Assembly (NCBI GenBank): GCA_913052445.1
Contig: CAJXDP010000013.1
Coordinates: 1-38,023 of the forward strand
Origin: an uncultured Formosa sp.
GTDB taxonomy: Bacteria > Bacteroidota > Bacteroidia > Flavobacteriales > Flavobacteriaceae
Length of the DNA: 38,023 bases
Direction of reading: 5' to 3'
In this document: piece after piece, positions 4,943 through 10,298 of the stretch
How the letters are laid out: each line of letters begins with the position of its first letter
Position numbering within the stretch: position 1 is the stretch's first letter
The notes under the pieces: generated by a model
The model's database searches: none
The model's input: the letters and a program-made list of their open reading frames with translations, nothing else
What the model was told of the DNA's origin: nothing
Made by a program: the position numbers and the translations under genes

Positions 4943-6238
4943 TTAATTAGAGTTCATTAATGCTTCAATCTCATCAATTTCAATAGGAATATTCTGCATT
5001 AAATTTACAGGGCATCCTTTGGCTTGAATCACTACATCGTCCTCAAGTCTAATTCCCATATTTTCTTCAGGAATATAAATTCCTGGTTCAACGGTAAAAA
5101 CCATATTGGCTTGCATAGGCGATTTTAAAGAGCCAAAATCATGAGTATCTAAACCCATGTGGTGAGAGGTCCCATGCATAAAATACTTTTTATAAGCAGG
5201 CCACTCTGGATCTTCGTTCTGTACATCTGATTTATCAATTAGTCCTAAACCTAAAAGTTCAGATGTCATTAGTTTCCCAACCTCTACGTGATAGGCATCC
5301 CACATGGTTCCAGGAACAAGTAATTTAGTTGCTATATTTTTAACATTTAAAACTGCTTGGTACACCGCTTTTTGGCGCGCCGTAAATCTTCCATTAACTG
5401 GAATAGTTCGCGTCATATCACTCGAGTAATTAGCATATTCAGCCGCTACATCCATAAGCAAAAGTTCTCCATCATTACACTTTTGATTATTCTCTGTATA
5501 ATGCAAAACACAAGCATTATACCCAGAACCTATAATAGGCGTGTAAGCAAATCCTTTTGAACGATTTCTTATAAACTCATGAATGTATTCTGCTTCAATT
5601 TCGTATTCCATAACTCCAGGTTTGACAAATCCCAAAACTCTCCTAAATCCTTTTTCGGTGATATTACAAGCAGTTTTGATGAGTGTAAGTTCTTCGGGTT
5701 CTTTGACTCCTCTAAGAGATTCCATAATAGGAAAAATCGGAAGCAATTCATGAGATGGATAAGTCGATTTAACCATTTTGAGAAAACGGTCTTCACGTGT
5801 TTCCATCTCAACTGCTTGACGGTAATGTTCGTTGTTGTTGTAATAAAAATGAGTTGATTCTTCCATTAATTGTGAGAAAATAGACTCAAATTCGTTTAAC
5901 CAATATACAGTCTTAATTCCGGAGCAGACTGTAGCCTGTGATTTATTGAGCTTAGCACCTTCCCATATAGCAATATGCTTATTGGTCTCTTTTAAAAATA
6001 GTATTTCACGGTGTGCTTTAAGCTTAGCATTTGGAAATAAAAGTAAGATACTCTCTTCTTGATCTACTCCGCTTAAGTAAAAAATATTTCTATGTTGATC
6101 AAATGGAAGTGTACTGTCAGCTCCAGTGGAAAACACATCATTTGAGTTAAATATAGCTAAAGAATTTGATGTCATTCGTTGAGACAACTTAAGTCTATTT
6201 TTTTTAAATAATTCAGCACTGATCGGAAGGTATTTCAT
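4943..6238 (-). CDS. pepP: Xaa-Pro aminopeptidase (M24B, aminopeptidase P)
   Basis: A cytosolic dimetal peptidase that removes N-terminal residues preceding proline; 431 aa, normal for the family. Residues about 5-150 are the AMP_N domain (RNIFYLSGVDQEES). About 185-415 are the pita-bread catalytic fold. The five metal ligands can be placed: Asp263 (LLMDVAAEY), Asp274 (SSDMTRT), His359 (HGTSHHMGLDTHD), Glu384 (VEPGIYIP) and Glu399 (GIRLEDD). All are present, so the enzyme should be active. It has its own promoter-like element upstream and is divergent from sdhC. Confidence 0.93.
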   Translation of the reverse strand: MKYLPISAELFKKNRLKLSQRMTSNSLAIFNSNDVFSTGADSTLPFDQHRNIFYLSGVDQEESILLLFPNAKLKAHREILFLKETNKHIAIWEGAKLNKSQATVCSGIKTVYWLNEFESIFSQLMEESTHFYYNNNEHYRQAVEMETREDRFLKMVKSTYPSHELLPIFPIMESLRGVKEPEELTLIKTACNITEKGFRRVLGFVKPGVMEYEIEAEYIHEFIRNRSKGFAYTPIIGSGYNACVLHYTENNQKCNDGELLLMDVAAEYANYSSDMTRTIPVNGRFTARQKAVYQAVLNVKNIATKLLVPGTMWDAYHVEVGKLMTSELLGLGLIDKSDVQNEDPEWPAYKKYFMHGTSHHMGLDTHDFGSLKSPMQANMVFTVEPGIYIPEENMGIRLEDDVVIQAKGCPVNLMQNIPIEIDEIEALMNSN

Positions 6239-6256
6239 TGAGAAGTTTATTTAAAT

Positions 6257-6264
6257 CAAATTTA
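6257..6264 (-). promoter_or_regulatory. Candidate -7 promoter element for pepP
   Basis: On the minus strand the sequence reads TAAATTTG, an exact TAnnTTTG match, 18 nt upstream of the pepP ATG. No convincing -33 TTTG partner at the right distance. Confidence 0.35.
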
Positions 6265-6364
6265 TAAATTTTATAACACAATAAAAGTTAATTACAATTA
6301 AATTACATAATAGTGTTGTAGTTATTTATAACTATTCTAAATAACAAAATTATCTTCAGAGTTA

Positions 6365-6395
6365 TTGTCTAAAACGATATCGTGAAGTACCTTTG
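6365..6395 (+). promoter_or_regulatory. Promoter of the sdhC gene / sdh locus
   Basis: TTG at 6365-6367, a 20-nt spacer and TACCTTTG at 6388-6395 fit the Bacteroidota primary-sigma promoter. The element ends 25 nt before the sdhC ATG. The intergenic region also contains a perfect short palindrome at 6319-6334 (TAGTTAT/ATAACTA) that could be an operator. Confidence 0.65.
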
Positions 6396-6420
6396 TCCCG
6401 TTATATAAAAACAAATAGTA

Positions 6421-7098
6421 ATGAGTGATATTTTAAAGTCATCAATAGGAAGAAAGATAGCAATGGCTATCTCAGCTTTTTTCCTAATGTTTTTTATTCT
6501 ACAACACTTTGCCATCAATATTCTATCAGTACTAGACCCAAACTTGTTCAACGAAGTTTCACACTTCATGGGCACTAATCCTTTAGTTCAATTTGTACTA
6601 CAGCCAATTCTAATTTTTGGGGTTATTTTTCACTTTGCAATGGGATTCATTTTAGAGTTTAAAAATAAATCTTCAAGGTCCGTTAGCTATGCTAAAAATA
6701 ACGGAAACGCTAACTCTTCTTGGATGAGCAGAAACATGATTTACAGCGGGGGATTTATTCTAGTGTTTCTAGTGATTCATTTTATTGATTTCTGGATTCC
6801 TGAATTAAATATAAAATATGTGGTTGGGGATTCTTCAGGGCTTTTAGAGGATGGTTCTGGCTACCGTTATTTTGAAGAACTCCAACATAAATTTGTGCCG
6901 CTTTGGCGCGTGGCTTTATATTGCATTGGTTTTGTTTTTCTCTCCCTGCACTTACTGCACGGATTCAATTCAGCATTCCAATCAATTGGAGCGAACAACA
7001 AATACACTAATTCATTAAAAGGATTTGGCAAAGCTTACTCTATATTAATCCCGTTAGGGTTTATCATAATTGCATTATTTCATCATTTAAATCATTAA
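6421..7098 (+). CDS. sdhC: Succinate dehydrogenase/fumarate reductase cytochrome b subunit
   Basis: The single membrane-anchor subunit of the B-type (diheme) succinate:quinone oxidoreductase; 225 aa. Five hydrophobic segments are visible, at about 14-34, 57-79, 106-124, 163-182 and 206-222. Histidines suitable as heme ligands lie in the membrane spans (His29, His71, His120, His177/180). It takes electrons from SdhB and passes them to menaquinone in the inner membrane. In related flavobacteria sdhC, sdhA and sdhB are closely packed. Here the 129-nt gap to sdhA is unusual and contains repeated sites and a second promoter. Confidence 0.93.
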   Translation: MSDILKSSIGRKIAMAISAFFLMFFILQHFAINILSVLDPNLFNEVSHFMGTNPLVQFVLQPILIFGVIFHFAMGFILEFKNKSSRSVSYAKNNGNANSSWMSRNMIYSGGFILVFLVIHFIDFWIPELNIKYVVGDSSGLLEDGSGYRYFEELQHKFVPLWRVALYCIGFVFLSLHLLHGFNSAFQSIGANNKYTNSLKGFGKAYSILIPLGFIIIALFHHLNH

Positions 7099-7120
7099 AT
7101 ATTGATTCGTATTCAGTTTT

Positions 7121-7181
7121 GTGTTACATAGAAGCAACTTGTGTTACACTTAAAAAATAAACGTGTTACAAATGTGTTACA
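7121..7181 (+). repeat. Four direct GTGTTACA repeats, candidate recombinase arm-type sites / operator
   Basis: Exact GTGTTACA copies begin at 7121, 7141, 7163 and 7174. Three of the four are preceded by T. Start-to-start distances are 20, 22 and 11 bp, close to two, two and one turns of B-DNA, so all copies lie on about the same face of the helix. The last copy ends 4 nt before the -33 element of the sdhA promoter. Regularly phased short direct repeats next to an integrase gene are typical arm-type sites. The neighbouring ORF begins with an arm-binding-like domain. Confidence 0.7.
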
Positions 7182-7185
7182 TTTC

Positions 7186-7216
7186 TTTGTAGCTAGATAA
7201 ATTTTTAATACTTTTG
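7186..7216 (+). promoter_or_regulatory. Promoter directly upstream of the extended sdhA
   Basis: TTTG at 7186-7189, a 19-nt spacer and TACTTTTG at 7209-7216 are a close match to the Bacteroidota consensus. The -7 element ends only 11 nt before the ATG at 7228, giving a very short 5' leader. It lets sdhAB be transcribed separately from sdhC and may have come in with an integrase gene. Confidence 0.65.
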
Positions 7217-7227
7217 AAAAAGATAAA

Positions 7228-7551
7228 ATGAAAGACAAAAAAATAACATATTCACTCAATTATCGAAAACCAAAATCAGAATATAAGCTTTCTGATGAAT
7301 TGACTATATGTTTAAGATACTACCACAAGTGCGATAAGACTAATAAAACCAAAATAATAAAAAAAAGCACGGGCATTAAGTGCAAATTGCAAGATTGGGA
7401 TACAGACTGGCATAAGTCCAGTAGCAGAAACCCAATTAAAGATTCCGACTCAAACTATAAAAAAAAGAATAGGCTTATACTTAATAAAATTAAAGAATTT
7501 GACTTTAAAGATCTTGCTAAAAAAAGTTCAACAAATAAATCAAAAAAGAAG
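7228..7551 (+). other. Fused N-terminal domain of SdhA resembling an integrase Arm DNA-binding domain
   Basis: Codons 1-108 of the sdhA ORF. The pattern is: strand ([11 protein letters not shown]), strand ([12 protein letters not shown]), strand ([13 protein letters not shown]), QDWD, then a Lys-rich helix ([13 protein letters not shown], 81-93). The STGI...DW hallmark followed by N..L..I matches the N-terminal arm-type domain of Bacteroidota tyrosine recombinases (Arm-DNA-bind family). The core-binding and catalytic domains of a recombinase are absent. The homology call is made from pattern recognition, without an alignment. The stretch is open over 108 codons in AT-rich DNA, which is unlikely by chance. 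Confidence 0.65.
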
Positions 7552-9543
7552 TTAGAATCCCATGTGCCTGATGGTCCATTGGCTGATAAGTGGACTAACC
7601 ATAAAAACAACATTAACTTAGTCAACCCTGCGAATAAACGTCAGATAGACGTTATTGTGATAGGAACCGGACTTGCTGGAGGATCCGCAGCAGCAACATT
7701 AGCAGAACTTGGATATAACGTTAAAGCATTTTGTTTTCAAGATTCTCCGCGACGCGCGCATTCTATTGCTGCACAAGGAGGTATAAATGCTGCTAAAAAC
7801 TATCAAGGAGATGGGGATTCAACTTACCGTTTATTTTATGATACGGTTAAAGGAGGTGACTACCGTTCTCGAGAAGCTAACGTCCACCGATTGGCAGAAG
7901 TTTCAACAAATATAATTGACCAATGTGTGGCTCAAGGAGTTCCTTTTGCGAGAGACTATGGCGGATTATTAGACAACCGTTCGTTTGGAGGTGTTTTAGT
8001 CTCAAGAACATTTTATGCCAAAGGTCAAACAGGTCAACAACTCCTTCTTGGGGCATATTCTGCAATGAATAGGCAAATTGGTCGTGGGAAAATTAAAATG
8101 TACAACCGTCACGAAATGTTAGATGTTGTTGTAGTTGATGGAAAGGCGCGCGGAATTATAGCCCGCAACTTAGTTACCGGCGAAATTGAACGGCACTCAG
8201 CACATGCAGTCGTTTTAGGCTCTGGAGGATATGGCAATGTTTTTTACTTATCAACTAATGCAATGGGTAGTAACGTAACTGCAGCTTGGAAAGCTCACAA
8301 ACGAGGCGCTTACTTTGCAAACCCTTGCTACACACAAATACACCCAACGTGCATTCCTGTATCGGGTGATCATCAATCTAAGTTAACCCTTATGTCCGAA
8401 TCCTTAAGAAATGATGGTCGCATATGGGTTCCAAAAAATTTAGACGATGCCAAAGCTATCCAGAAGCGACAATTAAAGCCAACAGACCTTACAGAAGATA
8501 AACGTGATTATTTCTTAGAAAGACGTTATCCTGCCTTTGGGAATTTAGTTCCCCGTGACGTTGCTTCAAGAGCAGCTAAAGAAAGATGTGATGCTGGATT
8601 TGGTGTGAACAAAACTGGGGAAGCGGTATTCTTGGACTTTGCGGCCGCCATTATAAGATACGGAAAAGAAAAAGCACATGTCAAAGGTCTGAACGAAGAT
8701 GATCAGACCCTCATTCAAATCTTAGGGAAAGAAGTGGTTAAAAGCAAATACGGGAACTTATTCCAGATGTATGAGAAAATTGTAGATGAAAACCCTTATG
8801 AAACCCCAATGATGATTTATCCAGCTGTCCACTATACTATGGGAGGTGTCTGGGTTGACTATAACTTACAAACAACCATCCCTGGCTTGTATGCAATTGG
8901 AGAGGCTAACTTCTCTGAACATGGCGCAAATCGTTTAGGTGCTTCTGCCTTAATGCAAGGATTAGCCGATGGATATTTTGTATTACCATATACTATTGGA
9001 AATTACCTATCTAAAGACATTAGGACAGGGCCTATTTCAACTGAATCTGTAGAATTTGAGGAAGCAGAAGCAAAAGTAAAATCAGAAATTGAGCATTTCA
9101 TCAACAATAAAGGAACCAAGCCTGTAGATTATTTCCACAAACGTCTTGGGAAAATTATGTGGAACAAATGTGGAATGGCTCGTAACGAAAAAGAGCTAAG
9201 GGAAGCAATTGAAGAAATTTCAATACTTCGTGATGAATTTTATAAGGACGTTCGAGTGCCAGGATCAGCCAATGAGTTTAATGAAGAACTTGCAAAAGCA
9301 GGTCGTGTGGCGGACTTCCTTGAACTAGGAGAGTTGTTTGCAAAAGATGCGCTGGTGCGTGAGGAATCTGCTGGAGGTCATTTTAGAGAAGAACATCAAA
9401 CAGCTGAAGGGGAAGCGCAAAGAAGAAAGGAATTTCAATTTGTATCTGCGTGGGAATACAAAGGAGCTCCTAAAGACGCTGAGCTCCATAAAGAAGAATT
9501 AGTTTATGAAAATATTGAAGTCAAAGAACGATCCTACAAATAG
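7228..9543 (+). CDS. sdhA: Succinate dehydrogenase/fumarate reductase flavoprotein with fused N-terminal arm-type DNA-binding-like domain
   Basis: The flavoprotein oxidises succinate to fumarate and passes electrons to SdhB. SdhA homology covers residues about 109-771 (663 aa, the usual full size in this group). It has the dinucleotide fold [15 protein letters not shown] (146-160), the flavin-linked His178 ([11 protein letters not shown]), the substrate region [12 protein letters not shown] (372-383), PRDVASRAA with catalytic Arg443 (442-450), HYTMGG (535-540) and [17 protein letters not shown] (563-579). The core therefore looks intact. Residues 1-108 are foreign to SdhA: Lys/Asn-rich, with a strand pattern ending in [14 protein letters not shown], like integrase arm domains. 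SdhA in this group normally starts at about LESHVPDGP, but no ATG exists there; the nearest alternative is GTG at 7564. Translation from 7228 is inferred from the promoter just upstream and the open frame. sdhB follows after 8 nt. Confidence 0.92.
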
Positions 9544-9551
9544 GTGCTGAT

Positions 9552-10298
9552 ATGAATTTAACATTACAGATATGGCGACAAGAAAGCGCCAAGGTAAAAG
9601 GAAAAATTGTAGAATATCCTGTTCAAGATATCTCTCCAGACATGTCATTTCTTGAAATGTTAGACATCCTGAATGTACGGCTAATAACAGATGGTGATAC
9701 CCCTGTTGCTTTTGACCATGATTGTAGAGAAGGCATCTGTGGTTCTTGTTCGTTATATATTAACGGAGAAGCACACGGACCTGACCGTCGTGTAACAACC
9801 TGCCAACTTCACATGCGAAAGTTTAAAGACGGCGATACCATTTTTATTGAGCCCTTCAGAGCGGATGCATTTCCTGTTATAAAAGATCTAATAGTTGACC
9901 GATCAGCCTTTGACAGAATACAACATGCTGGTGGATTTATTTCTGTAAATACTTCTGGAAATACTCAAGATGGAAACTCTATTCCTATTTCAAAACATGA
10001 TGCCGATCAGGCAATGGATGCTGCAACTTGCATTGGGTGTGGAGCATGTGTAGCAAGCTGTAAAAACTCCTCAGCTATGCTGTTTGTAGGTGCTAAAGTG
10101 TCTCAATACGCTTTACTGCCTCAAGGTCAAATTGAAGCCACGGACCGTGTTCAAAATATGGTATCTCAAATGGATTTGGAAGGATTTGGAAACTGCACAA
10201 ATACAGGGGCTTGCGAAGTAGAATGCCCTAAGGGAATCTCATTAGAGAATATTGCTCGAATGAATCGGGAATTAATTAAAGCTAGCATAAAATCTTAA
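9552..10298 (+). CDS. sdhB: Succinate dehydrogenase/fumarate reductase iron-sulfur subunit
   Basis: A 248-aa electron-transfer subunit linking SdhA to SdhC. The N-terminal plant-type ferredoxin domain holds the [2Fe-2S] ligands Cys58, Cys63, Cys66 and Cys84 (CREGICGSC...C). The C-terminal domain has [11 protein letters not shown] (Cys160, 163, 166, 170) and the further cysteines 215, 221 and 225 (CEVECPKG) for the [4Fe-4S] and [3Fe-4S] clusters. The gene follows sdhA by 8 nt and is surely co-transcribed. Its stop codon overlaps by 4 bp that of the convergent lipoprotein gene. Confidence 0.96.

Follow-up and report, generated by a model that had tools for sequence, protein, structure and literature searches.

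A complex II flavoprotein, SdhA, fused to an integrase-type arm DNA-binding domain in marine Flavobacteriales: a proposed PutA-like autogenous regulator

Why a respiratory flavoprotein should begin with a domain of a DNA recombinase, and whether this domain is a scar or a working part, is the question raised by one locus in a 38,023-nucleotide stretch of DNA from an uncultured Formosa sp., termed the window here. A 771-codon ORF on the forward strand has an ATG at position 7228, is stop-free to position 9543 and comprises an ~110-residue homologue of an integrase arm domain in frame with a complete SdhA. Similarity to SdhA was detected from about residue 106 onward, with NF005749 matching residues 106 to 771, and a full-length match to TIGR01811 was obtained with a score of 936.9 bits (cut-off, 541). 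All 17 of the other sampled genomes of the genus have an SdhA of ~672 codons in an open frame; the N termini listed read MALDSKIPEGPL, and their Met aligned with residue 107 of the window protein, where the SdhA body begins (positions 7546 to 9543, forward strand, stop codon included). The extension replaces the first six or so residues of SdhA, leaving residues 1 to 112 as extra sequence and confirming the claim of a preliminary description of this DNA that additional in-frame codons precede the normal SdhA start. No in-frame ATG follows codon 1 ahead of SdhA, and the other possible starts in this frame are two TTG codons (25 and 54) and one GTG (codon 113). Directly upstream of the fused gene is sdhC, encoding the membrane anchor subunit of complex II (positions 6421 to 7098, forward strand; PF01127 Sdh_cyt, E = 3.7e-6), whose position upstream of sdhA is kept in relatives, while sdhB, encoding the iron-sulfur subunit, follows at positions 9552 to 10298 (forward strand; PF13085 Fer2_3, E = 2.8e-22, and PF13183 Fer4_8). 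The window protein resembles the Bacillus-type SdhA (TIGR01811) in its full-length match and in the sdhC-sdhA-sdhB order expected of such an operon but differs from it in having a 112-residue N-terminal extension. The RAHS motif, which we take to surround the FAD-linked His of SdhA, was invariant in 20 aligned SdhA fusions. A Pfam scan of nine neighboring ORFs in the window detected no mobile-element gene.

Homology and a predicted fold both indicate that the extension is an integrase-type arm DNA-binding domain. Pairwise BLASTP aligned 84 residues of the extension at 54% identity (E = 1e-27) with L074, a tyrosine integrase that is 547 residues long and matches PF17293, PF13102 and PF00589. 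Residues 1 to 108 of the window protein alone matched 0 Pfam families, and the full protein matched Arm-DNA-bind_5 with an E value of 0.7, under the cut-off for that family; PF17293 was detected at E values of ≤0.1 in the extensions of 27 of 40 aligned relatives, the best value being 9e-7. An AlphaFold model of the domain had a strand-strand-strand-helix arrangement with a mean pLDDT of 84.5 and values above 90 in most of the ten-residue blocks between residues 11 and 90, and three strands followed by a helix is the architecture given for arm-binding domains in PMC8138268. The full-length fusion was modeled poorly (pLDDT of 55.2 with 20 close sequences), with the arm domain again as the best part. 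A Foldseek search with the domain against the PDB and viral models gave no match at an E value of ≤0.001, and PDB sequences searched with a profile likewise gave no match. From the alignment, PF17293, AlphaFold and BLASTP, the domain was assigned to residues 1 to 92 (positions 7228 to 7503, forward strand), with strands at residues 6 to 10, 24 to 34 and 41 to 53 and a helix at residues 77 to 90. It is joined to SdhA by a linker of residues 93 to 106 (positions 7504 to 7545, forward strand) that varies in length and sequence among relatives. The preliminary assignment of the extension as an arm domain was thus borne out by PF17293 in relatives, BLASTP to L074 and the AlphaFold fold; of the two checks proposed there for residues 1 to 108, structure prediction was positive and the Pfam search was negative.

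The SdhA-arm fusion was detected in 42 distinct genomes from three assigned families (f1, f8 and f11), a total made up of the fusions found in a scan of genome contigs plus those of the window, G111, G607, G635 and G645; every fusion seen comes from an unfinished environmental genome. Chimeric assembly was considered as a source of the fusion and was ruled out by this recurrence. The contig scan yielded 39 loci, 37 of which were in-frame fusions behind sdhC, the remaining two being a locus that ends at a contig edge (L063) and a stand-alone ORF (L059). In a sample of the family, 13 of 397 genomes matched the domain (seven SdhA fusions, one stand-alone ORF and, for the rest, integrases); in a sample of the order, there were matches in 8 of 395 genomes, 5 of them fusions. 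The fusion was present in 1 of 18 sampled genomes of the window's own genus. A phylum-wide scan for SdhA matched 266 of 296 genomes, and the matches listed were mostly frames of 637 to 713 residues, the longer ones among them, by length only, being those of G1006 (747), G1033 (750) and G809 (889). The extension had been described as unusual, which holds for the phylum but not for small marine Flavobacteriales, in which many other genera have the fusion. A check of related strains had also been suggested; 17 of the 18 sampled congeners, i.e., all besides the window, were without the extension, yet 42 genomes have the fusion.

All 39 of the fusion loci examined were in frame, and in none of them did the 20 codons immediately preceding SdhA include an ATG, supporting the earlier proposal that the protein is probably translated as a fusion; TTG or GTG was present in these codons in 9 of the 39. 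Many junctions retain LDSKIP or LNSKVP, a remnant of MALDSKIP, indicating a join at about codon 3 of sdhA. Fourteen close pairs were compared: in 10, the core of the domain had dN/dS values of 0.01 to 0.11, and in the remaining 4 the synonymous sites were saturated. Values for the linker were above those for the core in most pairs. These ratios are indicative of purifying selection on the arm domain of the fusions, and 24 alignment columns were invariant among 40 domain sequences. In the domain tree, 43 non-integrase rows were set apart from four integrases (support, 99/98), a split in keeping with one capture. The window copy grouped with Formosa-labelled MAGs and others (support, 90/95) and was divergent, with an end branch of 0.64. 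The SdhA tree, which has 116 rows with some second copies from one genome, showed a patchy distribution of the fusion and needed 8 changes, at least 6 by starred branches, indicating that the trait had been transferred, lost or both. The window fell among domain-less congeners in this tree, and the divergence of its copy and the rarity of the fusion in the genus could reflect a recent loss of need. A congener, G004, has away from sdhA a 65-aa ORF like part of the arm domain (L004, 1492 to 1689, reverse strand; 35% over 52 residues), which is perhaps a relic.

The interval between sdhC and the fused gene contains four GTGTTACA repeats (positions 7121 to 7181, forward strand) that were absent from the preliminary description. 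Repeat 1 (7121 to 7128) was designated a predicted arm-domain binding site from motif enrichment in fusion loci, and further predicted sites were located by motif search at 7141 to 7148 (repeat 2, 20 bp from repeat 1), 7163 to 7170 (repeat 3, 22 bp from repeat 2) and 7174 to 7181 (repeat 4, 11 bp from repeat 3). There is no GTGTTACA elsewhere in the 38 kb; 0.87 was expected, and 2 of 100 shuffles reached 4. The pair GTGTTA-N4-8-GTGTTA occurred once in the 1.73-Mb draft genome of the window (G000; 81% complete), beside sdhA at positions 7163 to 7179 (repeats 3 and 4). A putative promoter of the fused gene, TACTTTTG, was assigned at positions 7209 to 7216 (forward strand) by its consensus match to TAnnTTTG, which we take to be the Bacteroidota −7 promoter element.

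Across the fusion loci, 123 GTGTTA motifs were seen versus 10.3 expected from shuffles, and at least two were present in all 36 of the scorable loci. Same-strand spacings (n = 56) were 11 to 12, 20 to 23, 35 to 39 and 46 to 48 bp, or approximately one to four helical turns. This clustering in phase was equalled by 0 of 2,000 random sets and held for the 18 distinct spacing lists, in a collection whose related loci are not independent. A phased motif pair was detected in 33 of 39 fusion loci versus 0 of 55 loci without the domain, using spacing classes that were set after the counts had been seen and control regions of ~370 bases for the fusion loci versus 286 for the domain-less loci. The repeats were kept and phased within otherwise divergent control regions, and in two loci in which the fused ORF abuts sdhC (L167 and L168) there were 4 and 5 repeats upstream of sdhC instead. 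Motifs at the fusion loci occurred in both orientations, favoring recognition of DNA rather than RNA, and 33 of 93 were located within 20 bp before to 10 bp after TAnnTTTG-like elements (bins −20 and 0), a crowding that fits repression. From this distribution, we infer that the GTGTTA repeats are the binding sites of the arm domain. Domain-less congeners (L010 to L026) often retain a lone GTGTTA or TAACAC upstream of sdhC; 14 single motifs were counted versus 4.0 expected in 16 loci, with two loci having two motifs that were never phased. Such lone motifs are possibly a trace of a former fusion or a site for another factor.

Repeats were also found beside the genes of integrases with related arms. 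All ten of these Bacteroidota tyrosine integrases with PF17293-like arms (L074 to L080 and L116 to L118) had two direct repeats at a 12-bp interval (12 to 13 bp in L117) located 45 to 115 bp before their own start, in a set in which L076 is nearly the same as L075, L078 is truncated and the start of L077 is approximate; the same repeat test was passed by 252 of 2,100 random windows of integrase loci. Two direct repeats 12 bp apart upstream of int provide a usable rule for finding arm sites. The closest integrase, L074, has as its repeat GTGTTCCAAATTGTGTTCTAAAT, which resembles GTGTTACAAATGTGTTAC of the fusions and of which an inverted copy lies next to the start codon. As the motifs are similar and the repeats are those of the integrase's own gene, it appears that the domain was captured along with its operator from an integrase. 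Fused SdhA thus shares with tyrosine integrases of the Arm-DNA-bind_5 (PF17293) type homology, three strands plus a helix and, next to the gene, direct repeats in tandem at intervals of about one turn, but it has a respiratory enzyme attached and no core-binding or catalytic recombinase domain, PF13102 and PF00589 being absent from the Pfam matches of the ORF, whose frame runs into SdhA. A close-relative pattern search of viral contigs found relatives of neither the domain nor the L074 arm, and none of the domain were found in plasmids; phages had 17 distant integrases of <60% identity, of which the best 10 matched outside the arm.

A motif search of 30 genomes, with positions matched by coordinates, gave 43 loose pairs, 19 of them at sdh; of the 21 pairs of the GTGTTAC type, 15 were at sdh. 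The loose pattern also matched away from sdh, its reversed control giving 0 to 4 matches per genome, and no GTGTTAC-type pair was detected in the 6 domain-less congeners of this set. In G000, no wider regulon was detected, the sdh pair alone fitting the pattern; 6 of the 21 GTGTTAC-type pairs, all in other genomes, were away from sdh. In G111, a flavodoxin gene (L107, 606 to 1130, reverse strand) has the same GTGTTACAAATGTGTTACAAAT pair ~47 bp upstream and is a possible second target.

Two variations on the fusion amount to natural experiments, namely, the stand-alone copy of L059, beside a replaced SDH operon, and a fusion in family f6. Canonical SdhA is absent from the draft genome containing L059 (G191; 84% complete), which has a distant SDH operon of 29% identity instead, and the arm domain persists as a stand-alone 131-aa ORF with four motifs upstream. 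The junction in this locus (5640 to 10044; G191/G466) contains an sdhC remnant, and its motifs are GTGTTA/TAACAC. In family f6, SdhA is fused at nine loci, from eight genomes, to an excisionase-type HTH unrelated to the arm domain, as detected with PF12728 in all three tested (E = 2.9e-11 to 5.5e-15, above the cut-off) and with TIGR01764 in both tested (E = 1.3e-12 and 4.8e-13). A triplet with 10-bp phasing, RGACA-N5-RGACA-N5-RGACA, was present in 7 of the 8 HTH-carrying f6 genomes, G473 being the exception; 12 of 14 matches were immediately before sdhA, several across the start codon, with four of the 14 representing a local duplication in G502. The reversed control gave 0 matches, as did three HTH-less f6 genomes and three others. 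These data point to an independent, parallel fusion of SdhA to another DNA-binding domain. The f6 loci were L138, L148, L149 to L153, L155, L156, L165 and L166, with three f6 genomes being without the HTH. An excisionase-type HTH like that of f6 was also found fused to a C5 DNA methyltransferase-like protein (L199, 448 to 1710, reverse strand; G258).

The explanation that we favor, and hold to be probable, is that SdhA took the DNA-binding domain of a recombination protein together with its sites and became a PutA-like autogenous regulator of sdh. The capture probably took the 5′ end of an integrase gene and the repeats in front of it into the gap between sdhC and about codon 3 of sdhA. Binding of the fused domain to the GTGTTA repeats would be cooperative and on a single helical face, at sites surrounding the promoter of its own operon either in the sdhC-sdhA gap or in front of sdhC, and SdhA would act as an autogenous regulator, most likely a repressor. 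The operator would be bound by flavoprotein that still awaits incorporation into complex II at the membrane or that is in a particular redox or ligand state; assembly on SdhB and SdhC would remove this flavoprotein and relieve repression, such that the supply of soluble flavoprotein would track demand. DNA binding, the direction of control and the signal are predictions from sequence patterns. The more speculative of two readings offered at the outset, a PutA-like enzyme with its own control region as target, is now the better supported, owing to the phased repeats, as predicted sites, at sdh. With more reserve, but still as the likelier state of affairs, we propose that complex II has turned into its own transcription factor on at least two occasions in marine Flavobacteriales with small genomes, acquiring in each case a DNA-binding domain (an integrase arm or an excisionase HTH) and its tandem operator from the recombination machinery of a mobile element, and that free SdhA reports assembly or redox state to the sdh operon in place of a separate regulator.

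PutA is described in PMC5293562 as a flavoenzyme that associates with the membrane, has a DNA-binding domain at its N terminus and autogenously represses its own regulon. Fused SdhA is likewise a flavoenzyme with an N-terminal DNA-binding domain and predicted sites in its own control region, but PutA has a ribbon-helix-helix and oxidizes proline, whereas SdhA carries an integrase arm or, in f6, an excisionase HTH. Repression and membrane switching belong to PutA and would apply to fused SdhA by analogy, and we propose that the latter works like PutA but outside the PutA family. A further likeness is with C5 DNA methyltransferases such as M.SsoII, in which an N-terminal HTH region reportedly regulates transcription of the enzyme's own system; these are DNA-modifying enzymes and not respiratory ones. 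No report of an SdhA with a DNA-binding domain was found in the literature searched, which lacks most subscription journals.

The other reading offered at the outset, in which a deletion removed an element, fused the 5′ end of int to sdhA and left the domain and repeats inert, accords with the plainly integrase origin of the domain, the resemblance of the repeats to integrase arm sites and a window copy that is divergent and confined to 1 of 18 genomes of the genus. It can stand at most for a remote origin. As a recent scar, it is opposed by the absence of a mobile gene among the nine scanned ORFs and by a domain that recurs in 42 genomes with 24 invariant columns among 40 sequences and core dN/dS values of 0.01 to 0.11, as well as by repeats that were maintained and helically phased in divergent control regions and by the independent f6 fusion; we regard an inert relic as quite unlikely. 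Rather less strained, although still improbable, is a regulator acting in trans, the domain being cut off in the linker or made separately via an internal start and SdhA itself being ordinary. A stand-alone ORF does exist in L059, linkers vary freely, and potential internal starts are provided by the GTG at codon 113 of the window and by the TTG or GTG codons of 9 of 39 loci. The frame was, however, kept in 39 of 39 loci with no ATG near the old start, and a separate gene, which should be easy to evolve, was seen only where canonical SdhA is gone.

That same locus bears on a nonregulatory role, in which the domain would hold the enzyme or nascent chain at its own gene near the membrane for assembly of complex II, since the stand-alone ORF has no SdhA to tether. 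Such tethering would make sense of sites adjoining the gene of their presumed binder and of the need for SdhA to meet the membrane subunit encoded alongside; the motifs, however, surround putative promoter elements and start codons, as operators would, and we consider a tether very unlikely. Least credible of all is a live attachment locus, with the repeats of the sdhC-sdhA gap and the domain being maintained by related mobile elements rather than by the host. Arm sites and arm domains do belong to recombination systems, and the distribution of the trait over the SdhA tree is patchy, but at every fusion locus examined sdhC was followed by the fused ORF with no integrase or element in the gap, and the pattern search of viral contigs for close relatives and the search of plasmids found none of the domain.

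If autogenous regulation by fused SdhA is correct, a central enzyme of the TCA cycle and respiration would directly control its own operon, as few enzymes, PutA among them, are known to do. The DNA-binding modules of integrases and excisionases, together with their operators, would then be reusable as ready-made regulatory cassettes, and the fusions would connect, in a way open to experiment, the assembly of complex II with gene expression in bacteria that are abundant in the ocean.
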